In this document: positions 1 to 28,642 of the stretch, in pieces | How positions within the stretch are numbered: the stretch's first letter is position 1 | Layout of the letters: each line of letters opens with the position of its first letter | IMG/VR virus record: IMGVR_UViG_3300032006_000061 | Location: 1-28,642 of that record | From: a virus | DNA: 28,642 nt | Direction: 5' to 3' (one strand) | The notes under the pieces: model-generated | Database searches by the model: none | The model's input: the letters and a program-made list of their open reading frames with translations, nothing else | Told to the model about the DNA's origin: nothing | Program-made: the position numbers and the translations under genes

Positions 1-1
1 G

Positions 2-796: not shown

Positions 797-820
797 AGAA
801 CTCATTAAAAAGGAGAAAAA

Positions 821-1585: not shown

Positions 1586-1611
1586 TAAACTGGGCTTAGA
1601 AATGGAGAATG

Positions 1612-8679: not shown

Positions 8680-9087
8680 TTAATCTCCAAGAATCGTATC
8701 TAAATTACGTTCTTTACGTCTGATATCTTTTTTCTCCCCAGTTAAAACTGTGCCCGATTGGACTTCCCATTTAGATCCTGCGTGTCTTTCAACATAGGCA
8801 GAACCGTCAATACCCTTGGGCTGAATGCCCTCAGATCGGAGTCGCTTATAGGCCTCCATATCTTTTTCTTTGGCTCGTTCTTTAGCTTTAGTCCCGGCCC
8901 AATTAATCTCTTTACCATCATGTGTCCCTCGTGTGGGAGTAGCCGAAGCAGCTATATGCACTTCACCGAAGTACTTCCGAACCACTCCCCTACATGCGTC
9001 GCAAGTACCGTCATAGGTTTCATCAAACCCATGACGAATCTCATGTGATAATCCACAATCGAGACAACGGTAAACATAAATTGGCAT
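8680..9087 (-). CDS. FmdB-type zinc-ribbon protein
   Basis: A 135-residue protein with an N-terminal zinc ribbon: 'MPIYVYRCLDCG' (Cys8, Cys11) and 'GTCDACRG' (Cys29, Cys32), the standard arrangement of the FmdB putative regulatory family. The remaining 100 residues are charged and helical ('TKAKERAKEKDMEAYKRLRSEGI') and do not belong to the ribbon. FmdB-like proteins are common in phages of aquatic bacteria and Actinobacteria, usually inside the structural block; their job is not established. The start forms TAATG with the preceding fibre-like gene; the adaptor follows after 2 bases. Confidence 0.8.
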   Translation of the reverse strand: MPIYVYRCLDCGLSHEIRHGFDETYDGTCDACRGVVRKYFGEVHIAASATPTRGTHDGKEINWAGTKAKERAKEKDMEAYKRLRSEGIQPKGIDGSAYVERHAGSKWEVQSGTVLTGEKKDIRRKERNLDTILGD

Positions 9088-10136: not shown

Positions 10137-10153
10137 CGAACAGCCTCATCTTT

Positions 10154-10357
10154 CTAACCGGTAACTGATGCCGTTTCGGGATCACCCACTTTTCTGGCTG
10201 CAACAGCTTTACCAATAGCTACAAGGGCCGCAACTCCGGCAACCTTTAATGCGTCCATCCAATCTGGACCGGGAACTGCCATAGCTGCAACCCACGCCTG
10301 AGCGAAGGTAGCGACGGCACGTTCTAAACTGTCTTTAATAAAACGCTGGTTGAACAA
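10154..10357 (-). CDS. Holin, r1t-like
   Basis: A 67-residue protein with 'FIKDSLERAVATFAQAWVAAMAV' leading into a hydrophobic stretch, then 'DWMDALKVAGVAALVAIGKAVAARKVGDPETAS'. This is the order seen in the r1t holin family (PF16945) and in many actinophage holins: a first amphipathic/hydrophobic helix, an Asp-Trp turn, a second Ala/Val-rich membrane helix and a short 'VGDPxTAS' tail. It would make the membrane lesions that free the endolysin. No ATG is available; TTG at 10357 is chosen because GGAG stands 8 bases before it, although the frame is open to a further TTG at 10402. It overlaps the end of the endolysin gene by 23 bases. Confidence 0.75.
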   Translation of the reverse strand: MFNQRFIKDSLERAVATFAQAWVAAMAVPGPDWMDALKVAGVAALVAIGKAVAARKVGDPETASVTG

Positions 10358-11147
10358 CTTCTTGTCTCCGTATCTGCATAGCCGCCCAAGTCTTTGGACC
10401 AACTACGCCATCTGCAACAAGCCCTTTGACTCGCTGCCATTGTTTTACTTTGGCGAGTGTACCACGCCCAAATATTCCGTCGGCTAAAGCTCCTACTACT
10501 CGTTGAACATGGACAACTGCTTGGCTACGTGAGCCTTTGCGTAATGTTCCCGGAAACGGAACAAGCCCATCCTCTGGTTCTTTAGGTAAAGTCATTGCAG
10601 GAATGGTTGTAACCATGCGGCGTTGAATCATTCCTCGAAGTTCACTCATCGAGAATAAAGGATCTACTTTGCGTGAGGTCCATTCCTTGTGGCCTATCAC
10701 AGCACAGTCGGGATTCCAATTGTGTCCCTCGCACAGAAAAGCGCACAAATTTACAAGTGCCTCCATTTGTGTCTCGGGTACATCTTCCCCTAACCCGTCA
10801 TTAATAATTGAAACACCTATTAAACGAGAGTTAGCGCTGATCTTACCGGGGCTTGTAGCGTCCCCTAATACTGGATTGTTCTGCTGCATCCGTGTCAACA
10901 CTGACTGTAAGCCACGGCCAGCATGGTTAGCTTTCACGTTCTCCGCAGTCAACTTGACAATGGTGCCATCACGTTTTATGAGGTAGTTGTATAGAGGTCC
11001 GGGTACCTTGTTGACTCCTCGAACACACATTGCGACCACGTTGTCGGGGTCTGCGTTGCGGTTTGAAGCTGTGTGGTGGACAACTATGCCGAATGGTTTA
11101 AGTGGCCGTCCGGTATTTGCTTTACCGGGTGCGTCTACGAGTTTCAT
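10335..11147 (-). CDS. Endolysin: N-acetylmuramoyl-L-alanine amidase with peptidoglycan-binding domain
   Basis: A 270-residue lysis enzyme that cuts the amide bond between muramic acid and the peptide stem. Residues about 15-170 are an Amidase_2 domain: 'GIVVHHTA' (His24/His25), 'YNYLIKRDGTI' (Tyr54 region), 'NHAGRG' (His75), 'GVSIINDG' and 'GHKEWTSRKVDPLF' with His153 and Asp162 as the remaining zinc ligands. A linker with several prolines leads to a PG_binding_1 domain at about 202-257 ('LRKGSRSQAVVHVQRVVG', 'DGIFGRGTLAKVKQWQ', 'ADGVVGPKTWAAM'). No signal peptide, so export relies on the holin, whose gene overlaps the 3' end. The ATG at 11147 forms TGATG with the preceding gene; the TTG one codon earlier is less likely. 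The architecture is common in actinophages. Confidence 0.93.
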   Translation of the reverse strand: MKLVDAPGKANTGRPLKPFGIVVHHTASNRNADPDNVVAMCVRGVNKVPGPLYNYLIKRDGTIVKLTAENVKANHAGRGLQSVLTRMQQNNPVLGDATSPGKISANSRLIGVSIINDGLGEDVPETQMEALVNLCAFLCEGHNWNPDCAVIGHKEWTSRKVDPLFSMSELRGMIQRRMVTTIPAMTLPKEPEDGLVPFPGTLRKGSRSQAVVHVQRVVGALADGIFGRGTLAKVKQWQRVKGLVADGVVGPKTWAAMQIRRQEVVQPAFY

Positions 11148-11629
11148 CAATTTGAAGGATCGGTGTACATCACTGTGTGAACCTCTACTGCATCAGGCGA
11201 AGTAGGTTCAGTTGTGAATGGAGGATTGTCTGCAATCAAAACCCAAGATAAAGATTCTTCATCCCAACGGTAAGGACTTTCTTCCATGTCTGGATGATCT
11301 GGTCCTAAAATTCCGGGCAACTTGTCAGTCCATGAGCCTTCAGGCATCGGAGTAGGTGGTTGCCATTCAAGGTCATCATCTAACGTCCACGATGGGAAAG
11401 GTGCAGGATGTACAAAAGCTCCAAGTGGATATAACGCATTATCTTCTATAAAAAGATTCCCAATACCCGGAAATTTTTTCCGAATGTTGTGATTGTAAGA
11501 ACACTGAACCCATCTCCCACCTAAACCACAATCGTTTGCAAGAAACTCTTGTCCCCGATTTTCTTGCTCGTCAGGAACAACCAATATTTCTTGAACAACA
11601 CCGTTTTCAATCTTTGCAAAATGAGCCAT
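11147..11629 (-). CDS. Conserved aquatic-phage protein (160 aa), MAHFAKIENG family
   Basis: The N-terminus 'MAHFAKIENGVVQEILVVPDEQ' is a signature of a protein found repeatedly beside tail-fibre genes in aquatic phages, including cyanophages; its function is not established. Next is 'GRWVQCSYNHNIRKKFPGIG' and 'LYPLGAFVHPAPFPSWTLDDD', with many Trp, Pro and Asp residues, then a 'SPYRWDEESLSWVLI' segment near the end. There is no membrane span. It lies between the glycine-rich fibre gene and the endolysin, so it probably belongs to the fibre or tail-tip apparatus. The recognition is from memory of the opening motif and should be checked by a profile search. Confidence 0.65.
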   Translation of the reverse strand: MAHFAKIENGVVQEILVVPDEQENRGQEFLANDCGLGGRWVQCSYNHNIRKKFPGIGNLFIEDNALYPLGAFVHPAPFPSWTLDDDLEWQPPTPMPEGSWTDKLPGILGPDHPDMEESPYRWDEESLSWVLIADNPPFTTEPTSPDAVEVHTVMYTDPSN

Positions 11630-11631
11630 GA

Positions 11632-12459
11632 CTAAACCGCCACTCTAACTATCACAACACCTGAGCCACCATCAGCAGCACTCGGTCCTCGCCTTCCGGC
11701 AGCACCACCACCAGTATTGGCTACTCCGTCATCTCGGCCTCCGCCACCACCGCCAGCTAGATAGCCATTACTTGTTTGGTAATCGGAGCCTCCTCCTCCT
11801 CTGGCAACACCATCGTGCCAAGTTGAGCCATCGCCGCCCCAAGTTTCGCTAGACATACCATTACCGCCATCTGACCCAGCGCCACCACCACCGGCTATGT
11901 TCCAAGCACTTGAACTTTGAGAGTCGTTGCCTTCGGCTGGCGTGTAGCCGCCTTCGTTGCCAGACGCACCGGAGCTATGCCAGTTGCCTTGATAGAAAGC
12001 GGTGCCGCTCGCTGAACCACCTGTCTGAGCCGCAGGGTTCATCGCTACACCACCGCCACCGCCCCCGGTGCAGGAAAGATTTGTCCAACCTGATCCTGTA
12101 GTTTGATTAACAGTAGTATTTGATCCTTTGCTGCCTCGTGCTTCGTTGCCACCAGCAGCGCCACCAGCGCCGACAGTTATAGTGTAAGTCCCTTCATATA
12201 TGGTGGTGTCATCAAAGGTACGGTAACCACCAGCACCACCCGGAGCGCTGCCATTGTAGCTAAATTGGCCTCCGCCACCGCCGCCGCCAGCGACCATTAA
12301 AAGATCTACTTCGCCTTCACCAGTAACAGTTAGAGTCCCAGTCGAATTAAAAGTGTAATACTTGTAACCACCAGTTTCTGTTTCGGTACCACCAGACAGT
12401 TCAAATTTGCCTGCTCCGGCGGCTCCTAAGATTGTGGCTTTACTCGATCCGAACGGCAT
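11632..12459 (-). CDS. Glycine-rich tail-fibre tip / adhesin
   Basis: A 275-residue protein. It opens with 'MPFGSSKATILGAAGAG', nearly the same as the start of the fibre protein at 13820-14422. Residues about 30-60 ('GYKYYTFNSTGTLTVTGEG', 'VDLLMVAGGGGGGG') are the typical opening of the glycine-rich receptor-binding domain of phage fibres. The rest alternates Gly runs with Ser/Thr/Asn-rich strands and ends in 'GGSGVVIVRVAV', the classic last strand. Such glycine-rich sheets sandwich to form an adhesin tip that touches the host surface, as in T-even gp38-like adhesins. It stands at the end of the fibre cassette, with three other fibre proteins upstream. High confidence for family type, lower for the exact receptor role. 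Confidence 0.82.
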   Translation of the reverse strand: MPFGSSKATILGAAGAGKFELSGGTETETGGYKYYTFNSTGTLTVTGEGEVDLLMVAGGGGGGGQFSYNGSAPGGAGGYRTFDDTTIYEGTYTITVGAGGAAGGNEARGSKGSNTTVNQTTGSGWTNLSCTGGGGGGVAMNPAAQTGGSASGTAFYQGNWHSSGASGNEGGYTPAEGNDSQSSSAWNIAGGGGAGSDGGNGMSSETWGGDGSTWHDGVARGGGGSDYQTSNGYLAGGGGGGRDDGVANTGGGAAGRRGPSAADGGSGVVIVRVAV

Positions 12460-12467
12460 AACAATCC

Positions 12468-12698
12468 TCAGCTAGTGAGTGCGGCGATTTCGTCGTCAGT
12501 TAAACCAAGATCTTTAAGTTTCTGATTACCTGACTCTTTATCCGCAGCAGTTTTCTCAGCGGCTGCTTTCTCAGCGGCTTCTCGTTCTGCAATATCCGCA
12601 GCAACAGCTTCAGCTTCAGCGATTTCTTCTGCCGTGAAGTCTCGTAACGTTGTCTCACCTGTTGAACAATCAACAATTAATTTTCTAAGCTCAGCCAT
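12468..12698 (-). CDS. Small tail-associated protein (76 aa), helical with Ala/Glu-rich coil
   Basis: The frame is open to 12764, but ATG 12698 has AAGGA upstream and the product then starts 'MAELRKLIVDCSTGETTLRD', a conserved opening of small phage proteins that sit among fibre genes. The middle (residues 25-58) is an Ala/Glu/Lys-rich helix, probably a coiled coil; the end 'LKDLGLTDDEIAALTS' is also typical of this group. It overlaps the preceding fibre gene by 8 bases. Its function is unknown; a fibre-assembly helper or structural accessory is plausible. Confidence 0.65.
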   Translation of the reverse strand: MAELRKLIVDCSTGETTLRDFTAEEIAEAEAVAADIAEREAAEKAAAEKTAADKESGNQKLKDLGLTDDEIAALTS

Positions 12699-13272
12699 TG
12701 GTATCCTTGATCGCGTAAAGTTCGAAATGGGAACCGTCACCGAAGTATTCGGAAACAGACCCACATTTTACATTGACAGTTGTTAAGGCATCAGTGTTAT
12801 CGCACGCACCGAAAGAAGTTTCAAAGCCACCATTGGATGTGTTTCTTGGCGCACCACTTGTGCTAAGACCTACACCAACATTTTTTATAGGGGTAGCTCC
12901 TGCCAATGGGAAAGTCCAAGACATTGTGCCTTTACCATTTGTCCAATCTCCGCCAGTATCAACCCAATGCTGAGTCGCCTGCAAACAACCTTGCCCGTTA
13001 TACCAAGATTGTGCATAGCCGCCATTTCTCCATTTGCCACTAGACAAAGTAGAACCACTTGAAACTAGCCCTGCATAGGCATAGTTAGTGCTAGTGCTAT
13101 TTAGTTGGATATAAAGCGACGCAGAACCAGACGCAGTTGTGTTGTAGTTGTTGCAATAACCAAAAAGTTGAAAAGTTTTCCAATCATCACTAGTGGAAAT
13201 ACTTGTAAAACTCACTGAATGAGTTGCGTTCCCACTTACTGTTGCAGTACCCACAAGTTCATATACAGCCAT
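12691..13272 (-). CDS. Tail-fibre tip protein, paralog 3
   Basis: A 193-residue beta-rich protein, the third of three adjacent related genes. The family block is 'HSVSFTSISTSDDWKTFQLFG' near residues 19-37, aligned with 'SFTSIPQTYHALHLVGN' and 'SFTGIPQTYKTIRVVAN' in the other two. The C-terminal strand 'GDGSHFELYAI' aligns with 'TDSMWTLYGVG' and 'SNSRVTLIGLA'. Two Trp-rich loops and several Cys distinguish this copy, so surface loops have diverged. It lacks the MPFG..SK.AILGA anchor. The start forms TAATG with the preceding paralog. Such proteins occur widely in aquatic phage metagenomes as fibre or spike tips; specificity is unknown. Confidence 0.68.
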   Translation of the reverse strand: MAVYELVGTATVSGNATHSVSFTSISTSDDWKTFQLFGYCNNYNTTASGSASLYIQLNSTSTNYAYAGLVSSGSTLSSGKWRNGGYAQSWYNGQGCLQATQHWVDTGGDWTNGKGTMSWTFPLAGATPIKNVGVGLSTSGAPRNTSNGGFETSFGACDNTDALTTVNVKCGSVSEYFGDGSHFELYAIKDTNG

Positions 13273-13820
13273 TACGAGTCAGCCAATCCGATAAGAGTTA
13301 CCCGAGAATTAGAATCCATGTTCACGTTAGAAGCATAAAACTCTATCGAGGTGATACCCCACGATCCTCCGGGTTGTGCTACACCGCCAGTTATCCATCT
13401 CATATCTCCGCTATAGCCAGAGCTTTTACAGCGGCCACCAAATCCTTGCCAAACAGTAGGCTCATTAGCTGAATAGTTCATTATGTCTAAAATAATGGGA
13501 TTGTGACTAGAAACAGAACCAGTATCACCATCGATATTGCAAACCCAACCATACGTCCCCAACGTATTGTCATCTGTAGCTGATCCACTTATCCATGAAG
13601 ATCCTTGTACCGCTAAATATGCGTTGTAATAAGCAGATCCGGTTTCGCCATTCATACGCATATACAAACCTTGCGTACCCCAGCCAGCGCCGGTAGACGA
13701 GTCAGTCAAAAAATTTGCTACGACTCTTATAGTTTTATAAGTCTGTGGAATACCCGTAAAAGAAAGACTTGTTGTACTACCAGCAAAATTGCTAGCCGCA
13801 ATAACATCTGCGCCGCTCAT
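13272..13820 (-). CDS. Tail-fibre tip protein, paralog 2
   Basis: A 182-residue protein when started at ATG 13820, which forms TAATG with the stop of paralog 1; the frame extends 17 codons upstream, but that would overlap the paralog. It shows 'SLSFTGIPQTYKTIRVVAN' at residues 18-36, 'GLYMRMNGETGSAYYNAYL' (the usual 'RxNGDxGxxYY' strand of the family), 'NPIILDIMNYSANEPTVW' and a closing 'ITSIEFYASN...RVTLIGL'. The fold is probably a jelly-roll that trimerises. No N-terminal anchor is present, so it may attach through paralog 1 or compete for the same place. Role: candidate receptor-binding tip. Confidence 0.72.
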   Translation of the reverse strand: MSGADVIAASNFAGSTTSLSFTGIPQTYKTIRVVANFLTDSSTGAGWGTQGLYMRMNGETGSAYYNAYLAVQGSSWISGSATDDNTLGTYGWVCNIDGDTGSVSSHNPIILDIMNYSANEPTVWQGFGGRCKSSGYSGDMRWITGGVAQPGGSWGITSIEFYASNVNMDSNSRVTLIGLADS

Positions 13821-14422
13821 TAACTTGCCGTCCCCACTCCATATAATGTCCACATAGAATCGGTGTACCAATAATTGGACGAATTGAACATATCAATCTG
13901 GTCTATAGCAGCATTAGCTTCGAGTCTAACTAATTCTTCAGTAGCCATGTTTCCGTACCACGACGAATCGGAAGGGTCATACCATTTTGTCCACATTGTT
14001 TTTGGTTTATCCGTATTCGAATAACCGGGAAGCCACATTTCTATACATTGACCACCGATTTCGTTAGCCATAGAGGTATCTGTGCTGTACCCCCCAAAAT
14101 AGGCATAGTTAGTACTACTAGCACTATTCCAAGCAGCAGTATATGGGCCAGCGGAACTACTGTAAGAACCAAGTTCTACTCCACAACCAAAATATTCTGC
14201 GCTTGTGCTTCTTAAACGAAACAAACCATAAGAACTATTAGTGATATTGCAGTTGCCGACCAAATGCAAAGCATGATAGGTCTGAGGAATGCTTGTAAAC
14301 GAAACAGTACTTGTTGTGCTGTTCGTTGTCATTATGTCAGCAATCCACGTATAGGCAGGGTCGTAAGAAACACCGCCGCCGGAGGCACCTAAGATCGCTG
14401 CTTTAGAAGCCCCAAAAGGCAT
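13820..14422 (-). CDS. Tail-fibre tip protein, paralog 1, with anchor-like N-terminus
   Basis: A 200-residue protein. Residues 1-16 ('MPFGASKAAILGASGG') match the N-terminus of the glycine-rich protein at 11632-12459, suggesting a shared attachment module. Then comes the tip domain with 'STVSFTSIPQTYHALHLVGN' (38-57), 'LFRLRSTSAEYFGCG', 'CIEMWLPGYSNTDKPKTMW' and a final 'SMWTLYGVGTAS'. The same order appears in paralogs 2 and 3 just downstream. GGAGTTTCA stands before the ATG. The gene begins 9 bases after the stop of the fibre shaft gene at 14432-15109. It probably binds the fibre shaft by the N-terminus and the host by the tip. Confidence in family relation is high; in function moderate. 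Confidence 0.73.
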   Translation of the reverse strand: MPFGASKAAILGASGGGVSYDPAYTWIADIMTTNSTTSTVSFTSIPQTYHALHLVGNCNITNSSYGLFRLRSTSAEYFGCGVELGSYSSSAGPYTAAWNSASSTNYAYFGGYSTDTSMANEIGGQCIEMWLPGYSNTDKPKTMWTKWYDPSDSSWYGNMATEELVRLEANAAIDQIDMFNSSNYWYTDSMWTLYGVGTAS

Positions 14423-16767: not shown

Positions 16768-17241
16768 TTAAGTGCTTGCTCCCCACAAGAACCCTTCAGA
16801 TTCCATCAAAGCACGTAATTCATCTTCGTTAGTTGTTGCTCTAATGCGTTCGTCAAGATCAGGTGAACCAACCGGCTCTGCACCTTCACCAGCAGCTTGT
16901 ATACGCTGCTCACCGTTTAACGCTTCAGTTAATGCTCGGGGCTGCGGATCGGGAGCGTTCGCTCCAACAAACCCAGCGGCTTCAGCTTCGGCTCTAATAG
17001 CCTCAACTGTTAAATCGCCTTCGTAACCCTTCACAAAATAACTTACACGAGCATCATCAGGGTCTAACCCTGCTGATCTAAACGTATCACGACGCTGGTA
17101 TTGAGAAGCACTTTCTTCGGCTGCTGAAGCTCTAGCTTCTGCTTCCTTTAACCGTGCTTCCATTTCACGTCGCCAGTTCGGTTTCGATTCGGTTGAACTG
17201 CCAGCACCTTCACTGTCACCAGTGGAGTCGATGTCTGTCAT
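16768..17241 (-). CDS. Capsid scaffolding protein
   Basis: A 157-residue acidic protein directly before the capsid gene, the standard place for scaffold. A Ser/Gly/Glu-rich disordered start (residues 1-22) leads to a charged helix (WRREMEARLKEAEARASAAEES), a coiled-coil that helps scaffold oligomerise. Then 'FRSAGLDPDDARVSYFVKGY' and 'LTVEAIRAEAEAAGFVG' form a block I associate with scaffold-like proteins of actinophages. A disordered Pro/Glu-rich part follows and a short C-terminal helix (NEDELRALMESEGFLWG) could bind the capsid protein. AGGTGAG lies before the ATG. No protease motif is seen, so it probably leaves rather than being cut. Confidence 0.72.
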   Translation of the reverse strand: MTDIDSTGDSEGAGSSTESKPNWRREMEARLKEAEARASAAEESASQYQRRDTFRSAGLDPDDARVSYFVKGYEGDLTVEAIRAEAEAAGFVGANAPDPQPRALTEALNGEQRIQAAGEGAEPVGSPDLDERIRATTNEDELRALMESEGFLWGAST

Positions 17242-17369: not shown

Positions 17370-18532
17370 GTACTGGCGGCACCTAAACCAATGCCACCTT
17401 GGTCGCTGATGAGAAGGCCTGCGTTACCAGCGAAAGGTGCTAGTCGTGTTTCTCCACGACGGCGGAGTTTTGTAGCTGCAACTGAATCAATACCGAAACT
17501 ACCTGCGGCTAATTCGCTGGCGCTAAATGTTTCTTCGCCAATCAATTGAGACAACATGCCTGCACGGGTAGCTAGTTTTGGAACATCCGAAATACCAACG
17601 TTGGCTTGTTCTAACCGTTCAGCGGTACGCTTCGTTAAACCGGCCCCAACGGTATTCATAACAGCCGTTGACAGTTCCGCTGATCTCATTTGCTGCTCTT
17701 GCTTAATGAGATCTTTTGTTTTTACAGGGTCTAGATAGTAAGCAGCTACCCATTCGTCGTCTAAATTGTAAAGTTCTTTTAATTGTTTAATCACGTCAGC
17801 ATTCGCTGTATCTCTAGCTTGATACGCTAACGAAACACGCCGCTGGAACTCGTTACCTGAAACGTCGTATTGGATAAGTGTTTCAAAATCCTTAGCGTCG
17901 TCATAAAAACCGACAGGCATATTCGCTGCCCGTAATGTTTGACGATAAGTGTCTTCTAACTGTACATATTGCAATTCTGAAATAGCGTTAAACCCAGCAT
18001 CTCTACGAAGTTTCATGGCTGGGAAACGACGATCATATTCAGGACGTTCACGTAAGCGTTGGGTAATAGTCAAAGAATCATCTCCCATGATGAGAGACTC
18101 TTTAATAAATTCAACAAGGCTTGCTACGTCTTCGTCCGAAAAACCATAGGTTCTTAACAGTTCAGCGGCGATACCGTATATGCCGCCTCGTGATCCATAA
18201 GGCGGAGTCCAACCACCTACCTCCGGGGGTGTCGCCCCAACAGGATCACCTTGAATGTCGGTGACATTGCCTTCTGGGTCTGTCCATTCTCCGTACAGTT
18301 CATCAAGAAAATTTCCTTCAGCGTCTGAAACTCTGCCATCTTGCAAAGTGGGGCGGAATACTCCAATAGGAGCATTTGCGTCTGCGTCCCAACGACCTAA
18401 AGCTTCGGTCATGCCAATGGCTGTACGGGCAGCTTCGAATCGGGTATCAAAAGCTGACCGTGACCATTCGCCACGATCAACAATAGGTGAACCAAATTCT
18501 GCTTGTGCTAACAAATCAGAAAACGCAGACAT
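17366..18532 (-). CDS. Probable internal virion protein (388 aa)
   Basis: A helical, charged protein without membrane segment. Start: ATG 18532, preceded by GGGAGGAG and forming TAATG with the upstream gene; the open frame 9 codons further up is not needed. Residues 160-260 contain 'LRERPEYDRRFPAMKLRR', 'AISELQYVQLEDTYRQTLR', 'NMPVGFYDDAKDFETLIQYD' and 'VSGNEFQRRVSLAYQA', a pattern I have the impression of seeing in virion proteins of actinophages and aquatic phages. The C-terminus is Gly/Ala-rich ('NAGLLISDQGGIGLGAAST'). It is the fourth gene of a coupled block with a giant protein and lies just before scaffold and capsid genes; an ejection-protein or internal-core role fits. No enzyme motif is visible. 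Confidence 0.55.
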   Translation of the reverse strand: MSAFSDLLAQAEFGSPIVDRGEWSRSAFDTRFEAARTAIGMTEALGRWDADANAPIGVFRPTLQDGRVSDAEGNFLDELYGEWTDPEGNVTDIQGDPVGATPPEVGGWTPPYGSRGGIYGIAAELLRTYGFSDEDVASLVEFIKESLIMGDDSLTITQRLRERPEYDRRFPAMKLRRDAGFNAISELQYVQLEDTYRQTLRAANMPVGFYDDAKDFETLIQYDVSGNEFQRRVSLAYQARDTANADVIKQLKELYNLDDEWVAAYYLDPVKTKDLIKQEQQMRSAELSTAVMNTVGAGLTKRTAERLEQANVGISDVPKLATRAGMLSQLIGEETFSASELAAGSFGIDSVAATKLRRRGETRLAPFAGNAGLLISDQGGIGLGAAST

Positions 18533-20148
18533 TAGACACTCCTCCCAACTGCGCCCCACTTCTTTAAAATACTTTCTACGACTGCACGACCTGATTGCCG
18601 AGCATTTTTAGTGTTTTCCCATTCGGGTAAAGAACGAACATAGACCGCTGCTTCTGGGATAGTCATTTGACGGAACCCAGTTTCCGGGTCAGACACTCCT
18701 TGGGATATAACATCGAACATTCCTCTGTCTTTGCCGAAAAACTCTACGGGTCTTTCAAGAAGAGATGAAGCTTTTGCTTCGTAACCAGAGAAATAGTTTT
18801 CTGGTAAGAACCCTTGATCCATGATGGTTCCCAATTGTGGGTAAGTGTCCCGTGCTAATCGAGCGAATCCTGCGCTGATACCTGAGAGTGTTGCTTGTCC
18901 TGTAATGATTTGTTGGGCGTAATTGTGAAGTGTTTGTTCATCAATTTCCAACATATAGTTACGGGCTTTAGCTTTAACTTGGTCGTACATGCTGGCGTGG
19001 TCGCCTTTGCCCATGTTTGTTATAGCAAGTTCAGCATTATTGTAGATAGCTGCTTCGATTTCGTCATCGTCCCATCCCATAATGTAGGTATCACGGGCAA
19101 GTTGATGGATAATTGCTTCGTCTACTTCATCTAAGTTGACACCGAAATTGGCAAGTTTTTTCTTAACCTTGTTAATGTTATTTTCAAGTGTGCGTTTTTC
19201 TTCGGCTTCTGTTTGTCCCCATAGTTTTGCTTCGTTGAGCCGAAATGTTTCCCAATTTTTAGTTTGTCTTACTAACTCTAAAAAATAGCTTTCATCTATG
19301 CCGGGGTTTGCATCTAGGTAGTCTCCTAAAGAAACACTCGGAATAGAGTTGCCATTTATATCACGGGTGATTTCCCAACCGGGTTGCTTAAAGAAATCAT
19401 TACGGATTTGTTGCTGAAGATAAGTAACAAACCCATTCGATTTACCGGGAGCAGGGGCATCCCCATCACCCGGTATTGTTCCACCGCCGGGAACTGCTGG
19501 AGGTTGTGGGCCGATATTAGTATGTCCACCAAATACTGGTTCAGTAATCGCAGGAGCATCGGGTGTTGGTTGTTGCTCTAATGGACCTTCAGGTGGAAGA
19601 ACCGAAATGCTATCCGCCATATTGGGGGATGTATCAACCGTATTGGGAGATTCAGTTGGCTCTTCAATAAGTTGATCTGTTTCATCTGGGATATTCGACT
19701 CATCTACAGACGCCCACGGATCAGCCTCAATATATTCTTGGAAACTTTTTAGAAACGCTCCCTCAAATTCTGCCCCACTATATTCACCTACTCCTTCTAA
19801 TACGGTGCCTCGTAAGCTGCCGCCTGAAAGAAAAGCAAATATTTCATCTGGAGATGAACCTGCATCAAGTTCATCTCCCATAGCAATAAGATCTTCTATC
19901 TCATCTTGAAGCGCTGTGAATGTCCCCCAAGTTGTTCCTTTAGCAAAGCGTTTAGGAAATAACTTCCAAAAGGTTGCGAACTGACCTTTCCCAAAATACT
20001 TATTCTTGACATCAGCATCCCCACGCAACAAGCCGTCTAGTTCATCAGCAGACAAAGTTTTGAACGCCCAAAGAAAAGACTGTAAGGCGTCTAACTGTTC
20101 GTTTATTGCATCTTCTTTACGTTGCGCTAATGATTTTGGCGTACTCAT
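18532..20148 (-). CDS. Probable internal virion protein (538 aa)
   Basis: A long, mostly helical protein. ATG 20148 is chosen because it makes an ATGA overlap with the preceding gene, instead of 20172. N-terminal helical part (residues 1-155), a Pro/Gly/Thr-rich flexible linker at about 163-236 with many acidic residues, then a second helical part with 'NNINKVKKKLANFGVNLDEVD', 'IIHQLARDTYIMGWDDDEIE' and 'GISAGFARLARDTYPQLGTI', and near the C-terminus 'MTIPEAAVYVRSLPEWENTKNA'. The last part resembles ends of phage internal proteins in which a short helix and 'YVRSLPEW' motif recur. Two folded parts on a flexible linker suit a protein that must unfold or thread during DNA ejection. No catalytic motif seen. 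Confidence 0.55.
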   Translation of the reverse strand: MSTPKSLAQRKEDAINEQLDALQSFLWAFKTLSADELDGLLRGDADVKNKYFGKGQFATFWKLFPKRFAKGTTWGTFTALQDEIEDLIAMGDELDAGSSPDEIFAFLSGGSLRGTVLEGVGEYSGAEFEGAFLKSFQEYIEADPWASVDESNIPDETDQLIEEPTESPNTVDTSPNMADSISVLPPEGPLEQQPTPDAPAITEPVFGGHTNIGPQPPAVPGGGTIPGDGDAPAPGKSNGFVTYLQQQIRNDFFKQPGWEITRDINGNSIPSVSLGDYLDANPGIDESYFLELVRQTKNWETFRLNEAKLWGQTEAEEKRTLENNINKVKKKLANFGVNLDEVDEAIIHQLARDTYIMGWDDDEIEAAIYNNAELAITNMGKGDHASMYDQVKAKARNYMLEIDEQTLHNYAQQIITGQATLSGISAGFARLARDTYPQLGTIMDQGFLPENYFSGYEAKASSLLERPVEFFGKDRGMFDVISQGVSDPETGFRQMTIPEAAVYVRSLPEWENTKNARQSGRAVVESILKKWGAVGRSV

Positions 20149-20939
20149 GTAGGTCGCACTTTCTCCATCCAATCCATCAAACGTGAAGTGCTGTCCTTAT
20201 GCTGCATAAACCCAACATTGTCTGGATACTTAGTTCGTATATCTTGTCTTATTTGCGCCCCAACATCGTATTGTTCGCCACGATCCTTAGCAGCTAAAGC
20301 TGCGGTTCTCATACCTTTAATAAAGTTTTGGAACCCAGTTGGATCTGTTTTCGTTGCATCGAAACCAGCAAGGTCTATAGCTTGTTTCGCATACATTTCT
20401 TCTAGCATTGCCATGTCGGGGAGCATGACTAATCCTTGTTGCGTTTCCCCTAGTTTCTCTTCAAAAAGATCAATGTCTGTTTCTTTGAACTTGCGGTCAA
20501 GTGTCGGGATGAACTGATCTTTGTCTTCTGTTGCTGCCAGAACTTGCTGTGGGCTAACGCCTAGTTGTTGTGCTCGTTCCGTAACTTCAGACATAACATC
20601 TAACATTCCGTTAAAAACAATTTCCGGGTCGTAGAGTTCTTCTACGTCATTTTGGAAAGTGATATGTCCTTCAACAAATAATGCTTTGACTAAGTTCTCG
20701 TATTGTTCTGGGTCGCCTTGGATACTTTGCAAGTATTCGTACATATCCATTGAAGTAATGGGTGACGGCTCAATACCTTCAAGATTACGTTTTTGTCGTT
20801 CTGCTGCATCTGCGGCTTGGACATACGGTGAACGAAGAACAAGGTTGTAACCGACTATAAAACCGGGACTACCAGAATAAACGCCACCGATAACGGCATT
20901 TACTTCTCGTTGGGTTTCGTCAAATGTCTCGTCGCTCAT
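20145..20939 (-). CDS. Probable internal virion protein (264 aa)
   Basis: Not recognised by family. ATG 20939 forms ATGA with the stop of the giant gene, so it is preferred to the ATG 45 bases further upstream. The protein is helical and acidic in the middle: 'YEYLQSIQGDPEQYENLVKAL', 'EELYDPEIVFNGMLDVMSEV', 'RAQQLGVSPQQVLAATEDKD'; the final third is Lys/Arg-rich ('SRLMDWMEKVRP'). A Gly-rich patch near residues 15-30 ('AVIGGVYSGSPGFIVGYN') could be a short membrane-active or turn region. It is coupled on both sides and stands between two large virion-type proteins, so a part in the same internal complex is the best guess. Confidence 0.55.
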   Translation of the reverse strand: MSDETFDETQREVNAVIGGVYSGSPGFIVGYNLVLRSPYVQAADAAERQKRNLEGIEPSPITSMDMYEYLQSIQGDPEQYENLVKALFVEGHITFQNDVEELYDPEIVFNGMLDVMSEVTERAQQLGVSPQQVLAATEDKDQFIPTLDRKFKETDIDLFEEKLGETQQGLVMLPDMAMLEEMYAKQAIDLAGFDATKTDPTGFQNFIKGMRTAALAAKDRGEQYDVGAQIRQDIRTKYPDNVGFMQHKDSTSRLMDWMEKVRPT

Positions 20940-23900
20940 GCCGCTTGCCTTAGTATTTGATGCGCCTTTTGATTTTGAGGCCAAGAAGCACGCATTATCA
21001 CATCGTCCTGTTCTAAGTATCTCACGAATACTGGAGAAAAATCAGGGATATTACTAAAGGCTACCCGTGATCTTTCCCACAAATCTTTAAGATCATTGTT
21101 TCGCTTATGAGATAAGAGTTGTTCTTGCGGATCGCCACTCTGTTGCGACCTCAGCAAAAGCTCGTTTGTTAGCCAATCCCGTAATTCGAAATAAGCATCC
21201 ATATGCGGTATAGCAGGATGCCATTCGAATTGTTTATTGTCTTTCCATGCACGCAAACTGTGAATAGTTTTTGCGCTTTCTTCCGCAGTTTTAATATCGT
21301 TGAACTGTTCAAACCAAAGCGGATACTTTTCTGCAACACGTTGAACAATCATCTGTTTAGCTTGCTTTAAGCCCACATTGGCTTTTGCGTTAAGACTTGA
21401 TGGTTGCCCAGAAAGACGTAACTGTTCTTGCTTATACCGGATGGGGGCCATGAGTTTCTCATACCAGAACCAGCCAGCGTTGCCATTCGCACGACGAATA
21501 ATCTCACCCGGTTTTTGGTAAACACGGCGACCTTCAGCGATTTCTTTTTTGTATACGACAGTATTAAACGCAGCGTTATGCGCCATCTGCACATCTAACG
21601 GCCCAATCTTTCCAAGCATTAGATCTTGGATAGATGCGTTGTCTTTAAAGAACGCTGGGTTTTTGCTGTATTCTTCTTCACCAAACAAAGTCGCTGATGC
21701 GACTGCTCCGTCAGCTATACGAGTTTGTCGTCCGACAATTCCCCAATACTCTGGGTTCTCAACGAGCAACCATTCATCTGCTGCTGCTAAACCTTCTGTT
21801 TCCATTATCTTTTTATAATTTTCGATAATGTGAGCATGAGGCGACTGATTCATATATGAGATCGGAGACGCCAAATTTGCAAACATTCGCACTTGGAGCA
21901 TCGCTGTGACCCGATCATCGACTTCATCTTCGAACATTTCCATTTCAGAAGCTGACTCGATAGTCAGACCTTTAAGTTCGTATTCTACGATCATGTCGGA
22001 CGCTACTCTTGCACGGACACGTTGGCGTTCCAATGTATCCATTGCGCTACTGCGTAATGTTTGGCTCCAAAGTGGCGTAATCGAATCTACTAATCGCTCT
22101 AGTGTGCTTGTCCCTTCGGATAACCCATATGGGAAAGCCCACTCTAATGATTGAGCTACATCAGGTACTTGTACGGCAGCTTCGCTAGCAGCAAACGCTA
22201 CTAACGGACCAAATCCGGGTAACCCACCTGACATCATCGAAAGTGACGAAAGGTTAAATTTGATTGGGTTGTCGCCTAACCGAGAGAATCGACCAAATAC
22301 TTCTTTGTCTCCATACAGAGGCAACCAGTCTGGCGTTTGCATCCCGAGAATGGTGCCGAATCTGAGAAGGAAAAGAGGTGCGCCTGTTTCTTCGTCTACA
22401 GCGTTGAAATTTTCAAGGCCATTATGGAAGTTGCGTGTAGTGGCAAGAACAAAGCCGGGGTTTCGTGTTGCGATACCAGCCCAACGGGTGATTACTTCTT
22501 GATAGGCAGCGAAGAACGGCATCAAGTTAGCTGTTAGTTCTTCGAACTTTGTACGTTCAGCCAAATCGTAGAGAAGGTTCTTTGTTTTGGCGATAGCTAC
22601 CCGACGTGACTCTGCTTCGATAGCATTTATTTCTTTTTGGGTGAGCCGGTAATCGCCGTCTGCTGTTTTAAAGTTAGGTAAACGTCTTGCGACTTCACCG
22701 CTGTAAACAGACCGGAAGACTGTGCTTCGTGTTAAAGCATCAGTGGGCATTGTTCCTAGCATTTGGAATGCTTCATCGGTCCAACGCTTTGCTCTGATAA
22801 TCATTCCGCTTGCTTCTGCTGCATCTCGGAATGCGGAATCTCCAATAATTCTGCCAAAATCTTCGTAACCGAGTCCTCGTATCCGACCTATATCGCCTCC
22901 GAATTTGTTGTCAATAACAGGTTGGACATCCCGTGCCCATTTGATTTCTTCACCGTTTGCCAATTTTCTTCGTAGGTGTAAAAACTCTGGGATAGGAGGA
23001 ATTTGGTTGTCAGTTTCAAAACGAACTTGTCTGATCCATTCATCTACTGCATTAATAGTGTCAGTGAAGTGGGCAGGCATAATGTCACGGAGAACACCGC
23101 CGGGTCCAAATCGAATCCAATTTAGAATGTCGTCGTCTGTTACGGCTTCAGTCCAGAAAAGGCGTGTGAAATCTTGGAAAGGGTTGCCTTCAAGAAGATC
23201 GGGAGATGCGTTGGCTTTCCACCATCGTGCATCTTTTATAGCTTCATCTCGTACTTGTTTACCGAGATCTACTGTGCCATCTCCTTGGACAGCGATATCT
23301 TTGTTCTCGCCGTACCATGATTTGTGTGCGTCTGTGAAACTAATTTCTTCGTCACGGATGACTTGGTGAAGTTCTGAAAGACGTAATGATTCGGCTTCTG
23401 TTAAATCGTTAGTCCAGTCAATACCAAATCCGTATTTCTCATCCATTTCTCGCAAAAATTCTTGGTACTGTTTTTGGAATTCACCATGACGTGCTCGTGC
23501 TGCACGCATCGCATTTGTTTCATTACGTGGCACAAAATAAGTTGGCCGTGAATACGCTGTCGGATCTGTCATCGGTACCCACTGTCTATTAACAGTGTCA
23601 TCGAATGCTTCAGCGAAAACTTTAGGGTGTTGCCCGTAATCGTATTGTTCTCGTCGTCCTTGGCGAACAGTTTTACGAGTTACGGAACTAGCACTATTCC
23701 ATAGCGTTGACTTGTATTGGTTCGCTGAAATGGCTTGCCGGTAAATGCCGTTCTGTTGCGGTGTATTACCGAAAGCATTACCAATCGTTAGTCCATCAAG
23801 ATGGAAGTCGCTAACACCAGCATCGGCCATGATTTTACCAGCCGTGTCAAAGTTTTGGACAATTGTTCCATCTCGATATGCGGCAAGATCTTCACTTGAA

Positions 23901-26900
23901 TCTTCAATTTTTTGTTTGCGTGCCGCTAATTCGTTACGCATTTTGCCAGTTACACGATCCCGTAATGTGAACTGATCTTGGTATTGCTTGGCTTGTGTCA
24001 AAAGGATTTTACGGGTGTCTTCGAAACCTTGGGCTTTCTTAATAAGGTTCGCGATTTCGTCAGCGTCTTTAACCGGATCTAGTTTTGTTAATTGCTGCTC
24101 GATTCGGAATATCTCTTCATTGATTTGGTGACGACCTATTTGGCTCAACGAATACCCCATATGATTTAGGGTTTCCAATTCAGCTAAACGTCGCATGGAG
24201 CCACGGGAATATAAACTGTACAGTCCGGCAGCAGCAAGTCCGGCTGGCCCAGCTAAGAATGCGCCCACAGCGCCAGCGCCCATAGTCCGTGTAAGAATTT
24301 TCTTCTTACCGTATTCCTCAGAGATCACTTCTTTAACAACGTCCTGTAATTTTTGATGATCGCCGTCGTAATGTCGTGTTAATGCGCCTATGAGTTCATC
24401 GCTGCTTGCGAGATCAGGATTGATGGGGCGTAACCCTGAACCGGGTAAATCAATCTTGACATCTGCGTCTTTTAAGATCTGTCTAATTTTTAGGTTAAGT
24501 GGCTGTGCTAGATCTTCGCCTCGTAATCCGAACCAGCCTGCACGTAAATCATTGAAGCCGCTAGCGATACCTCTTACTGCGTTCATCGTCCCATAATCGG
24601 CAGCGGTACGCATAAATTCGTCGCTTATAACTCGGATAGGCCACGCTGGGCGAAGCAACACTGATTTTTTCCACAACCCTGTGAAGGCATTCATCGTCAT
24701 GCCAACTTGATCTCTTGTGAACTGGGCTGCTTTCATTACCGAACTTTGATCTCCGAAAGCATTTGCATACAAGTCGTATCGTGGGACGAGAGTAGCTTCA
24801 GCTAATTGTTGCGGTGTCATCGGTAATTGACGCACATCAATATTGCGGTGTTCATCCATGCTGTAAGTACGGATTTGGCTGTTGCCATACAACCGGGCGT
24901 TTTTGCCCATCTTCTCAACTTCTTTTTGGGCAGACTTCCAGTTACGTCGCAATATGCGAGTTAATTCGTCAGAAGATGTATTAACGAATTTGCCGTCTTT
25001 CCATTGCCCAATTCGCCCTTCGAACATTTTGCCTAAGTTGCTGTTCAAAGTTTGAACCGTGTCATTAAACAATCGTTGTCGGGCAGCTACGTCAGGGTTT
25101 TGTATCCATCGACCTAGAATTTCGTCTTTATTTAAACCTGAAAACTCAACTAGGTTTTGGTCACGGACTTTTCCGGCTTCATAAAATTTTGGTTTTACAC
25201 GTTCAGCCTCACGTAACATTCGTTCGAATTGTTCGTAGGCTTGTACCGGATCGTCCCAACGAATAAGCCCTTGCGGCACTTTTTCAACAAAGAAACGCAC
25301 ACGGATATTCGGCATCTTTATACCGATACCAGTTTTGTTTTCGAACTTTGTAGTGAACTCTTTCACGTAGCCTTGTTCGCCAAAAGCCCGTGCTGCGGAA
25401 CTCACCCCTCCACGAACGGTGCCACTCATTTCGTCAAAACGAGATATGCCGGGAAGTGTTTCTAACTTCCCTACAAATTCAATGTTTTGGTGGATGATCT
25501 CGTCAGCAACAACTTTAATCAAATCAGCGTTTTCGCCGTTCAAAGCATCGTAAAGGGCTTGTATGTTTTCGTGTCGCCCATCCCGAGCATCTTTACGTCT
25601 AGCTAATTTTTTAAGTCTTGCGTCTTGGAAAATCAAAGCAGTAGCAAACGGCATATCAGGATATTCGTTAGCAAGTTTTGCTTCTATGGCATGTTGTTTT
25701 GCCATTAATTCGCCGTCGTCGAATGCTTCGTAGATGCGACCTTCTAATAGGCGACCGCTTGGCTGATAAACACCAAACATTAAATCTTCGACTTGTTCTA
25801 GTTGGGTCGCTCGTGCTTCATCAACTGGTATCCATGTACCGTCAACATTGTTCCCCCATTGGCTGTTATAAATCCAACCTTCGGTAGTAGCTACTCCTGC
25901 TTGTGCAACATTCTCTGCAAATGCAGGATGTTCTTCTAAGGACACCCACTTTTGTTTACCGGGGTCCCAAGCTTCCATAGCCTTGTCTTCCCAACCGGCT
26001 CTTTCTGTGTCAAGTCTGACTGGATCTCGGCCTTCTCGGGTATACCACATACGAAATTCCGGTTGGATTTCGTCAATCATGCGTTCACGTTGGAAACGCT
26101 GAGCGATGTAAGGAATTTCTTGGCTCGCTACAAGAGGCCGACGTAACCCAAATTTGTATGCGGCTCGCATCGCTGCTTGTGCCCGACCACCAGCGATACC
26201 TTCATCGGACATTGGTGCTCGTTCTCGAACTATTTCACCAGTGGCTTCGTCAATTACAGGGTTGCCTTGTGGATCTCTAACTATTCGTTCATACTCACCG
26301 GGGTCAGAACGCCTAAGTTCTTGACGTTCAGCTAAAAGTTCTCGCACAGTGTTCGCACCTGCACGTAACTCTTTGACTTCCAAATCACGCATTTCAGAAA
26401 AGTCATCGGGGACTTCACCGAACTTAGATTCTAAAACCTCGTCCCATTTGGCTGAGTATTCAACAAATGAATCCCATTCGTCAGCTAATCCAACAAGTGA
26501 CTTTTTAGTTGGATCACCTGTTCTTCTTGGACGTTGTGATTTTGGTAGTTTAAGAAAGTTTTTCTCTGCTTCGAACGCTGCATTTCGGAATGCGTCATGG
26601 CGTTCTTTCGGGTTTAGTTTCTGCCACTCTTCTGTCCCCCCGACAATATCCATGACTTCTTGTCTTTGAGATCTGGAGGCTTCTTTCCACCAAACATCGA
26701 ACTGGTCACGACTTGCATCGGTCATCTCTGAAAGATGTTGAGCGTCTACACGTCGCCCTTCGAGCAGTTGTTCCGATTTACGGAGTTCAGTTTCGAGATC
26801 TTTTAGCTCGTTTTTCTGTGCGGCAGATGCTTTTCTGCCCGGTACAAATACTGCTTCCCCGTTTTTTTCTTTAATAGAGCCGACACCCTGTTTAACGTAC

Positions 26901-28642
26901 TCCGCTTTCAAATCAGAAATTTCTGTTCTTAGCTCTTCTAGTTCTGTTGGGCCTCGGAAATATTCGCTTTGTGTTATCCCCGGATCTACTTCTACTAAGA
27001 AATCTGCTCTAGCTTCCTCACTTAGATCATCGAACTTGGTGCGTGTCTTTAACGCAGCTTTAAGAGCAGGCTTACCGCTCACCATCCGCTTGAACTGGTC
27101 TTGCCATTCATAAGAAGCGTCAAGTCTGTTCACTTCGACATCATCAACGAATTGTTGCCAGTGAGGGTCTAACCCGTCTTCCGGTGTAAGTTGATTGGTT
27201 CGTGGCCGATGGTTCACATCTTCGTACCAGCCCGTTGTTTCACGGTATTGGCGTGGGGGTGCCCAGCGTTTGATGTATTCGCCACGACCGGGGATAGCTG
27301 ATTGTGTTTCTTTAGTTATCTGGCCTTCTGGAATGTAATCTTCAAATAGTTGTTCACCATATTCGTCCATCATCGGATTACCTTCGTAATCCACCATCGG
27401 ACGTTGCGAGGTTTGAGTTCCTTCCCCAAGATTCGCAATAGCTTCATAAATTTGGTCAACGATATCTAGAGCTTCTTCGGTTGGTTTCCCATCAGGATGT
27501 TTCTCTGAATAACCCCGACGACCAAACCTGTCAATTATTTCGTCAATTGTTAAACCGATGTACGGGTGGAGTTCGACAGGTAATGCTTTTTTAAGTCGTG
27601 CTATGCGTTCCTCATGGGTGAGTCCTTTCCACTCATCCATCTCCTTATAAAATTTTTTACCGTCGTCTTTTCCCCACTTTTTCGTCTTCTCGTCCCAAAC
27701 CCAATCTGGTCCCAAAAGTCTTTGCAATGGGCCATCGTCCGCCCACCGATCTACTTGTTTTTCAAGATTTTCCCAGTTCTTGTCTGGGCTACCAGCATCT
27801 CCGGGGTTGAAGTTCAATTCATCCCACAAAGCTTTTAAAGCATTTTCTTGAATATTCCCAGCGGCAGTAACCGTCGCATTCAAGTCTGGTGCGCCTCGTC
27901 TACGGGCGTCTTTAGCTATTGGGCGTCTGCCACGGCGTACTCGTTTTGTGGAGATCAAACCTTTTTTTCTTAGGAGATGTTTTTCTAAACCGCCTCGGGG
28001 TGTGCGAACTGGATCTCTGTCTAAGAGTGCTTCCATCGCATCAACCATCCGGTTAACACCTTGATTACGTAACTTTTGGGATATCTCTGGGTCGCCGGGA
28101 CGATAAGTGCCTTGTTTGTTTCGATGCCCAATACGGGCACTCATTATCACATCGTCTAAAGCACGATCAGTTTCGACTAACTCATCCCAGTTATCACTAA
28201 AATCTTTAATCCGTTTGGCGTCACCTTGTGGGATACCAGCCCAGTGAAGCAATCTGCCTTTATCTTCCTGACTAAGTTGACCCCAGTTTTTATCTCGCAA
28301 GTAACCTTTACCGGTTGTCGTTGGCCGGAACCAGCGGAAGAAACCTTCCCCCAGTGGATCAACTTCGTCTGCTAACGCAGGGTTGAATTGCAACCCAAGA
28401 TCTTTTGCCGCCGCTTTAGCTTCTTCAGTTTTTGCCAGTTTTGCTGCATCTAATTCAACTGCTGTTGTGGGTGAACCAAGAACAACAGCGTCATAAAGAT
28501 CAGAAAGTTCTTTCCCTTCCATATCAATCATGTTCCGTAGGAACTTCATATTGGCAAGGGTCGAAGCACGTTGCGGATGAAGAGCACGTCCTGATCTGTC
28601 TGTGACTCTGCTTTCTAAAAAGTCAACAAATTCGTCAAAGCT
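20936..28642 (-). CDS. Giant internal virion / ejection-type protein, 5' end beyond the right edge
   Basis: The frame is open from the right edge to its stop at 20936: 2568 residues are visible and the ATG at 28549 is only an internal Met, because 31 more sense codons precede it. The protein is hydrophilic, helical and Arg/Glu/Lys/Trp-rich, with coiled-coil-like stretches and Arg-rich patches ('RVRRGRRPIAKDARRRG'). One Gly/Ala-rich hydrophobic segment lies at about residues 1454-1478 of the visible part. Towards the C-terminus, 'NLMPFFAAYQEVITRWAGI' is a block I associate with giant phage virion proteins. I see no convincing polymerase, protease or transglycosylase signature. Size, single hydrophobic segment, coupling to three virion-like genes and absence of a tape measure suggest an ejection protein, comparable in role to T7 gp16 or N4's virion protein. 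Function is inferred. Confidence 0.62.
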   Translation of the reverse strand, partial: SFDEFVDFLESRVTDRSGRALHPQRASTLANMKFLRNMIDMEGKELSDLYDAVVLGSPTTAVELDAAKLAKTEEAKAAAKDLGLQFNPALADEVDPLGEGFFRWFRPTTTGKGYLRDKNWGQLSQEDKGRLLHWAGIPQGDAKRIKDFSDNWDELVETDRALDDVIMSARIGHRNKQGTYRPGDPEISQKLRNQGVNRMVDAMEALLDRDPVRTPRGGLEKHLLRKKGLISTKRVRRGRRPIAKDARRRGAPDLNATVTAAGNIQENALKALWDELNFNPGDAGSPDKNWENLEKQVDRWADDGPLQRLLGPDWVWDEKTKKWGKDDGKKFYKEMDEWKGLTHEERIARLKKALPVELHPYIGLTIDEIIDRFGRRGYSEKHPDGKPTEEALDIVDQIYEAIANLGEGTQTSQRPMVDYEGNPMMDEYGEQLFEDYIPEGQITKETQSAIPGRGEYIKRWAPPRQYRETTGWYEDVNHRPRTNQLTPEDGLDPHWQQFVDDVEVNRLDASYEWQDQFKRMVSGKPALKAALKTRTKFDDLSEEARADFLVEVDPGITQSEYFRGPTELEELRTEISDLKAEYVKQGVGSIKEKNGEAVFVPGRKASAAQKNELKDLETELRKSEQLLEGRRVDAQHLSEMTDASRDQFDVWWKEASRSQRQEVMDIVGGTEEWQKLNPKERHDAFRNAAFEAEKNFLKLPKSQRPRRTGDPTKKSLVGLADEWDSFVEYSAKWDEVLESKFGEVPDDFSEMRDLEVKELRAGANTVRELLAERQELRRSDPGEYERIVRDPQGNPVIDEATGEIVRERAPMSDEGIAGGRAQAAMRAAYKFGLRRPLVASQEIPYIAQRFQRERMIDEIQPEFRMWYTREGRDPVRLDTERAGWEDKAMEAWDPGKQKWVSLEEHPAFAENVAQAGVATTEGWIYNSQWGNNVDGTWIPVDEARATQLEQVEDLMFGVYQPSGRLLEGRIYEAFDDGELMAKQHAIEAKLANEYPDMPFATALIFQDARLKKLARRKDARDGRHENIQALYDALNGENADLIKVVADEIIHQNIEFVGKLETLPGISRFDEMSGTVRGGVSSAARAFGEQGYVKEFTTKFENKTGIGIKMPNIRVRFFVEKVPQGLIRWDDPVQAYEQFERMLREAERVKPKFYEAGKVRDQNLVEFSGLNKDEILGRWIQNPDVAARQRLFNDTVQTLNSNLGKMFEGRIGQWKDGKFVNTSSDELTRILRRNWKSAQKEVEKMGKNARLYGNSQIRTYSMDEHRNIDVRQLPMTPQQLAEATLVPRYDLYANAFGDQSSVMKAAQFTRDQVGMTMNAFTGLWKKSVLLRPAWPIRVISDEFMRTAADYGTMNAVRGIASGFNDLRAGWFGLRGEDLAQPLNLKIRQILKDADVKIDLPGSGLRPINPDLASSDELIGALTRHYDGDHQKLQDVVKEVISEEYGKKKILTRTMGAGAVGAFLAGPAGLAAAGLYSLYSRGSMRRLAELETLNHMGYSLSQIGRHQINEEIFRIEQQLTKLDPVKDADEIANLIKKAQGFEDTRKILLTQAKQYQDQFTLRDRVTGKMRNELAARKQKIEDSSEDLAAYRDGTIVQNFDTAGKIMADAGVSDFHLDGLTIGNAFGNTPQQNGIYRQAISANQYKSTLWNSASSVTRKTVRQGRREQYDYGQHPKVFAEAFDDTVNRQWVPMTDPTAYSRPTYFVPRNETNAMRAARARHGEFQKQYQEFLREMDEKYGFGIDWTNDLTEAESLRLSELHQVIRDEEISFTDAHKSWYGENKDIAVQGDGTVDLGKQVRDEAIKDARWWKANASPDLLEGNPFQDFTRLFWTEAVTDDDILNWIRFGPGGVLRDIMPAHFTDTINAVDEWIRQVRFETDNQIPPIPEFLHLRRKLANGEEIKWARDVQPVIDNKFGGDIGRIRGLGYEDFGRIIGDSAFRDAAEASGMIIRAKRWTDEAFQMLGTMPTDALTRSTVFRSVYSGEVARRLPNFKTADGDYRLTQKEINAIEAESRRVAIAKTKNLLYDLAERTKFEELTANLMPFFAAYQEVITRWAGIATRNPGFVLATTRNFHNGLENFNAVDEETGAPLFLLRFGTILGMQTPDWLPLYGDKEVFGRFSRLGDNPIKFNLSSLSMMSGGLPGFGPLVAFAASEAAVQVPDVAQSLEWAFPYGLSEGTSTLERLVDSITPLWSQTLRSSAMDTLERQRVRARVASDMIVEYELKGLTIESASEMEMFEDEVDDRVTAMLQVRMFANLASPISYMNQSPHAHIIENYKKIMETEGLAAADEWLLVENPEYWGIVGRQTRIADGAVASATLFGEEEYSKNPAFFKDNASIQDLMLGKIGPLDVQMAHNAAFNTVVYKKEIAEGRRVYQKPGEIIRRANGNAGWFWYEKLMAPIRYKQEQLRLSGQPSSLNAKANVGLKQAKQMIVQRVAEKYPLWFEQFNDIKTAEESAKTIHSLRAWKDNKQFEWHPAIPHMDAYFELRDWLTNELLLRSQQSGDPQEQLLSHKRNNDLKDLWERSRVAFSNIPDFSPVFVRYLEQDDVIMRASWPQNQKAHQILRQAA

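Follow-up and report, generated by a model that had tools for sequence, protein, structure and literature searches.

The DNA analysed here, referred to as the window, is the whole of a linear virus record in IMG/VR, 28,642 bases long. Its genes form two converging blocks: a plus-strand block (1-4628) with DUF932, PD-(D/E)XK, Rad52-like, and SSB genes, and a minus-strand block (5078-28642) with virion and lysis genes. The latter also holds a gene resembling a DNA polymerase exonuclease subunit (5078-5833), an Amidase_2/PG_binding_1 endolysin gene (10335-11150), and a 349-aa gene (9087-10136) that matches DUF6801 below threshold (E = 0.0018) and otherwise has no family.

The minus-strand block is entered from the right edge of the record by a giant open frame that is free of stops for 2,568 codons, down to the stop at 20936-20938 (Table 1). 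The chance of one given frame remaining open for so long is approximately 10^-59, assuming independent bases and the composition of the window. The original prediction, made from the sequence alone, that 2568 residues run without a stop up to base 28642 was confirmed by codon count, by the frame read in homologues, which is the same one, and by the dN/dS values given below. The nearest relative, G038 (IMGVR_UViG_3300032048_000225), encodes a complete giant protein of 2,955 aa that shares 58% identity across window residues 1-2563, and residue 384 of this protein aligns with residue 1 of the window giant. Approximately 383 N-terminal residues are therefore absent from the record and the full length is about 2,950 aa, with the ATG at 28549 being internal, as had been predicted. 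As judged from this alignment, the window frame covers the last ~87% of a giant protein, the start of which is outside the record.

The TGA of the giant frame overlaps the ATG of the 264-aa gene (ATGA, 20936-20939), and the stop of the latter overlaps the ATG of the 538-aa gene in the same manner (ATGA, 20145-20148), whereas the junction between the 538-aa and 388-aa genes is TAATG (18530-18534). The ATGA coupling proposed for all three downstream genes thus held for the first two junctions and not for the fourth gene. Starts given in the list of open reading frames as TTG 20984, TTG 20172, and GTG 18559 are better placed at ATG 20939, 20148, and 18532, respectively.

Table 1. Positions of the giant frame, its segments (numbered by visible residue), and the neighbouring virion-type genes in the window.
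Feature	Coordinates	Strand	Remarks
Giant open frame	20936..28642	-	2,568 residues visible out of ~2,950; start beyond record
Residues 1-978, largely insertion-site-1 segment	25709..28642	-	End-to-end alignment only with G038
Residues 979-1693, conserved middle scaffold	23564..25708	-	Corresponds to G025 382-1053; hhalign to BF
Residues 1449-1490, Gly/Ala-rich hydrophobic segment with AGP.G motif	24173..24298	-	Candidate membrane hairpin, by hydropathy
Residues 1694-1814, insertion site 3	23201..23563	-	Block map against G025
Residues 1815-2566, C-terminal core, most conserved part	20945..23200	-	Predicted all-helical; holds PHROG 10618 match
Coupled gene 2, 264 aa	20145..20939	-	ATG at 20939; no family match
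Coupled gene 3, 538 aa	18532..20148	-	C-terminal domain PHROG 6654
Coupled gene 4, 388 aa	17366..18532	-	PHROG 8424; homologue of BF gp14
157-aa gene directly before MCP	16768..17241	-	PHROG 7813; stands where a scaffold gene would, by position only
Major capsid protein (MCP), 314 aa	15785..16729	-	PF13252 (N4-type)

Relatives in marine contigs and in cultured Streptomyces phages

Relatives were reached first through the capsid protein (PF13252, leading to phages of Streptomyces cluster BF) and later through a profile of the giant family. No match was obtained by tblastn with the window giant against 50,697 phage records, and a first peptide-pattern scan of IMG/VR found no relative. When viral contigs were scanned with a C-terminal-core profile, 111 relatives were obtained (at least 111 in IMG/VR), of which 80 were kept; the giants of relatives range from about 1,800 to 3,409 residues in length. 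Paenibacillus API480_16 showed no similarity to the giant family, and Vibrio p0022, scanned against Pfam and PHROGs, gave no match.

The C-terminus of the window giant matches the PHROG 10618 profile (E = 4.3e-12), as do 15 of the 16 aligned giants (best E = 1.3e-35). This PHROG is the family of the gp9/gp10 proteins, annotated as 'hypothetical', of cultured cluster-BF podoviruses (Beephvirinae: Manuel, Immanuel3, FlowerPower, and Abafar). By profile matching, the giant is therefore not an orphan; it is a member of an uncharacterised orthologous group, PHROG 10618. The earlier statement that most of the protein could not be assigned to a known family was wrong at this level, the family itself having no known function or solved relative. 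A profile of 16 marine giants found four BF giants in colinear segments with E values of 4e-41 to 5e-46. In this comparison the middle segment gave E values of approximately 1e-5 to 1e-6 and the N segment 0.01-0.3, which is weak alone, with their order being kept. Alignment with hhalign linked the C-terminal core (99.9%, E = 1e-32) and the middle scaffold (85.6%, E = 5.6e-6) to the BF giants.

The order of genes in BF phages is TerL, portal, the ~1,650-aa gp9/gp10, a ~271-aa protein, an NlpC/P60 peptidase, a 'glycosylase', gp13/gp14, tRNAs, a small gene, and MCP. TerL and portal genes lie outside the window, and their position was read from relatives. BF phages and those marine contigs that are long enough share the order TerL, portal, giant, three or four coupled genes, and MCP; in relatives of the window, the giant is followed by three genes with ends that mostly overlap or almost touch, a ~158-aa gene, and MCP. 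TerL, portal, gp14, and MCP are all homologous between the BF and marine groups (E of ~1e-17 for marine versus BF TerL; hhalign 98%, E = 1e-13 for portal), with the window MCP being 35-37% identical to BF MCPs. This synteny with cultured podoviruses and the more than 100 relatives support the claim that the giant is a virion-type gene with coupling to others of this type. The claim of a podovirus-like genome agrees with electron microscopy of the nearest cultured relatives, which are podoviruses (PMC9753666, PMC11536984) with Streptomyces as host.

The C-terminal domain of the gene 3 product (PHROG 6654) is common to the BF NlpC/P60 peptidase gp12 and 'glycosylase' gp13. In Manuel, gp12 and gp13 (L002 12627-15235) both match PHROG 6654 over nearly their full length; they are apparently paralogues with different N-terminal enzymes. 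In the window, the C-terminal domain occurs once. Neither the window giant nor gene 3 was found to contain a peptidoglycan hydrolase domain, with the NlpC/P60 fusion being present only in BF gp12. The more distant phage ct2KA10 (L145, OX376640) has a giant of 1,772 aa (8703-14018) in the same layout. Its TerL, portal, and MCP strongly match those of BF, whereas the similarity of its giant to the family is borderline (E = 3e-4), an indication that the giant has evolved much more rapidly than the genes around it.

Two further contigs require comment. One of 59,966 bp (G041, IMGVR_UViG_3300020476_000002; L248-L251) carries two giants, of 1,837 and 2,915 aa, located ~37 kb apart and each with its own set of capsid genes; it probably represents two phage genomes fused in assembly. 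Another (L151, PARV01000048), in a metagenome-assembled genome labelled Gammaproteobacteria, encodes a complete 2,095-aa giant in the same order of large genes. An assignment of the host from this contig was rejected, given that the stretch read shows only the order of large virion genes and that the contig may be mis-binned; it is likely a free phage contig.

The location of the gene between portal and capsid genes, its coupling to structural-type genes, and its retention throughout the group would also suit a protein that stays fixed in the head or tail as a structural part of the portal vertex or inner core. We consider such a protein improbable, in that a spread in length from ~1,800 to 3,409 aa, together with the conserved hydrophobic segment described below, would be unusual for a component of a symmetric shell.

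Conserved blocks, inserts, and predicted structure

With the short giant of G025 (1,816 aa) as ruler, three common blocks were recognised in relatives, namely N-terminal, middle, and C-terminal core. Lineage-specific inserts occur at three sites (about positions 360-385, 786-926, and 1053 of G025). The site-1 segment of the window is 46% identical to that of G038 from end to end, aligns partially with that of G012, and is absent from minimal relatives. Given that the first ~978 residues are largely insert, it is understandable that the original reader was unable to place them. Site-1 segments fall into four mutually non-matching groups, and several relatives are almost without one. In G002 (L108), an in-frame block of ~230 residues is missing from inside the site-1 insert compared with the close relatives G006 and G010 (L125, L120), to which identity reaches 96% at one flank of the gap.

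Values of dN/dS for close pairs were 0.07-0.39, with one nearly identical pair at 0.03. Most pairs had their lowest values near the C-terminus, and in several the insert bins gave the highest, with a peak of 0.88 in one bin of the pair G021-G022. These ratios indicate strong purifying selection throughout the giant.

Such an architecture might also be expected of a multidomain effector package that enters the cell along with the DNA, a role proposed for DarB-like and LPD proteins, with inserts that attack or shield against host systems and with no conduit. The variable inserts between conserved blocks, the in-frame gain or loss in G002 versus G006/G010, and the high insert-bin dN/dS (up to the G021-G022 peak) are all in keeping with this possibility. 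Moreover, Bacillus phage Page, the capsid of which is related, has a late 1,679-aa protein annotated as hypothetical (gp20; L146 19786-24825) that matches LPD38 at 3e-27, and the DarB-like JC1 gp69, which carries LPD38, is virion-associated by mass spectrometry (PMC9144972). However, none of 16 giants carries a Pfam effector or LPD domain (a single match was at chance level), LPD38 was absent from the window and the relatives tested even at an E value of 10, and comparison of the giant-family profile with Page gp20 yielded nothing. Moreover, the scaffold rather than the inserts is the most conserved part. We therefore regard delivered effector cargo as unlikely, although deserving of consideration. 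LPD38 itself, which had been suspected from the Page relative, was rejected after direct HMM and profile comparisons gave no support, and Pfam matches to C19orf12, Pox_A_type_inc, Transposase_29, B12-binding_2, and an Sm protein were set aside as being at chance level.

Pfam, NCBIfam, and PDB searches found no relative of the giant, and similarity to DarB-type proteins or T7 gp16 was not detected in profile searches. A strong match to a methylase-helicase or virion RNA polymerase, named at the outset as the outcome that would speak against an ejection protein, did not appear in Pfam, NCBIfam, PHROG, or PDB profile searches. An N4-type virion RNA polymerase could be entertained on the basis of the N4-type capsid (PF13252) and of size, with schitovirus enzymes being about 3,500 aa (PMC12633501). 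Neither Pfam, PHROG, and NCBIfam nor profiles of the whole family, C-terminal core, or middle compared with PDB sequences gave a polymerase match, however, and we attach very little credence to this assignment.

The model for the C-terminal core (window residues 1795-2568) was almost entirely helical, with a mean pLDDT of 67 and a low-confidence stretch at about residues 1930-2150, and with much of the conserved part at ~1930-2190 below 50; that for the middle (residues 960-1712) was poor, with a mean pLDDT of 50. Foldseek searches of BFVD with the core model returned Manuel gp10 (1.8e-13), the other matches with E below 0.001 being uncharacterised or unnamed phage proteins, and those with the middle model returned no match below this value. 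At the modest confidence of the two models, a PDB fold search gave no significant match; the matches listed (Z at most 5.5 and 8.0), among which there was no T7, P22, or N4 ejection protein, were coiled-coil or helix-bundle arrangements and were set aside. The middle scaffold contains the Gly/Ala-rich segment. Of 28 frames scanned, 27 extend over this site (G015 does not), and 24 of these have the strict AGP.G motif; hydrophobic variants occur in G007, G016, and G019. The segment is a candidate membrane hairpin, hydropathy alone being no proof of membrane insertion.

A putative role in DNA delivery

We slightly favour the interpretation that the giant is an internal virion (ejection) protein, unlike those characterised, in a lineage of marine podoviruses that is related to Streptomyces cluster BF. 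Of the original prediction of a new type of ejection protein, the virion-gene setting was upheld, and the ejection role is suggested by gene position, size, coupling, conservation, the all-helical prediction for the C-terminal core, and the conserved hydrophobic segment. These last two features are in line with a review in which conserved membrane-spanning elements are attributed to homologues of gp14 and gp16 (PMC8954989). Ejection proteins are described as mosaic and variable in size, and the large differences in length and divergent inserts of the giants agree with this. The occurrence of the PHROG 6654 domain of gene 3 in the BF cell-wall peptidase and 'glycosylase' lends further support. 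Against an ejection role, no solved ejection protein was found to resemble the giant in sequence or fold, with models of modest confidence. Furthermore, the hosts of the cultured relatives are Gram-positive, whereas ejection proteins have been described mainly from podophages of Gram-negative hosts, with phi29-like phages of Gram-positive hosts being said to lack them (PMC8954989). In the literature on BF phages, we found no virion proteomics for any member of the giant family.

As an ejection protein, the giant would be packaged in the head together with the products of the coupled genes and would exit through the portal along with the DNA at infection. Insertion of the hydrophobic segment into the cytoplasmic membrane would follow, and this segment and the helical C-terminal core together might form or anchor a conduit for DNA. 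Relatives of gene 3 would open the peptidoglycan, as suggested by the fusion of the PHROG 6654 domain to NlpC/P60 in BF, and the fast-evolving inserts may contact host- or defence-specific partners. A more far-reaching proposal, which we put forward tentatively and with considerable doubt, is that of a new class of giant ejection protein, unrelated to the T7, P22, and N4 kinds and occurring in a lineage that extends from phages of Streptomyces into the open ocean; a conserved membrane-conduit scaffold would carry exchangeable, lineage-specific modules, up to ~1,000 residues in length, for delivery into the cell.

The giants are among the largest genes of a widespread marine podovirus group and are labelled 'hypothetical' even in cultured phages. 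Given that BF phages grow on laboratory strains of Streptomyces, a role of the family in DNA entry is directly testable. The result would reveal whether ejection proteins are in use among podoviruses of Gram-positive hosts, and the reported lack of such proteins in phi29-like phages would make a BF or marine example, if true, of interest.

Comparison with known systems

The giant resembles T7 gp16 and P22 gp16 as a large late protein of the virion module with coupled virion genes, and has a candidate membrane-spanning element. It differs in being about twice their size or more, and neither sequence or fold similarity nor a transglycosylase domain was detected. The gene order of T7 and P22 also differs from the portal-MCP position of the giant. 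The virion RNA polymerases of N4 and DEV (Schitoviridae) resemble it in giant size and in the N4-type capsid family of the phages, whereas the giant is without a polymerase match by any profile. The position of the polymerase gene also differs from that of the giant. Large polyvalent proteins (DarB-like proteins, LPD38 proteins, and Page gp20) are likewise giant late phage proteins with conserved blocks and variable modules, whereas no LPD38 or other polyvalent-protein domain is present in any scanned member of the giant family. Given that virion RNA polymerase, DarB/LPD, and T7/P22 ejection proteins were not detected, the giant is a member of an uncharacterised orthologous group, best regarded as a variant of the giant podoviral internal-virion protein. 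The BF gp9/gp10 proteins differ from it in length (~1,650 aa, without the large insert of the window) and share ~20% identity with it, and BF phages have two phrog_6654 proteins (peptidase and 'glycosylase') rather than one as well as a tRNA array ahead of MCP. They match the giant in gene position, in the virion genes that follow, and in a colinear C-terminal core and middle scaffold.
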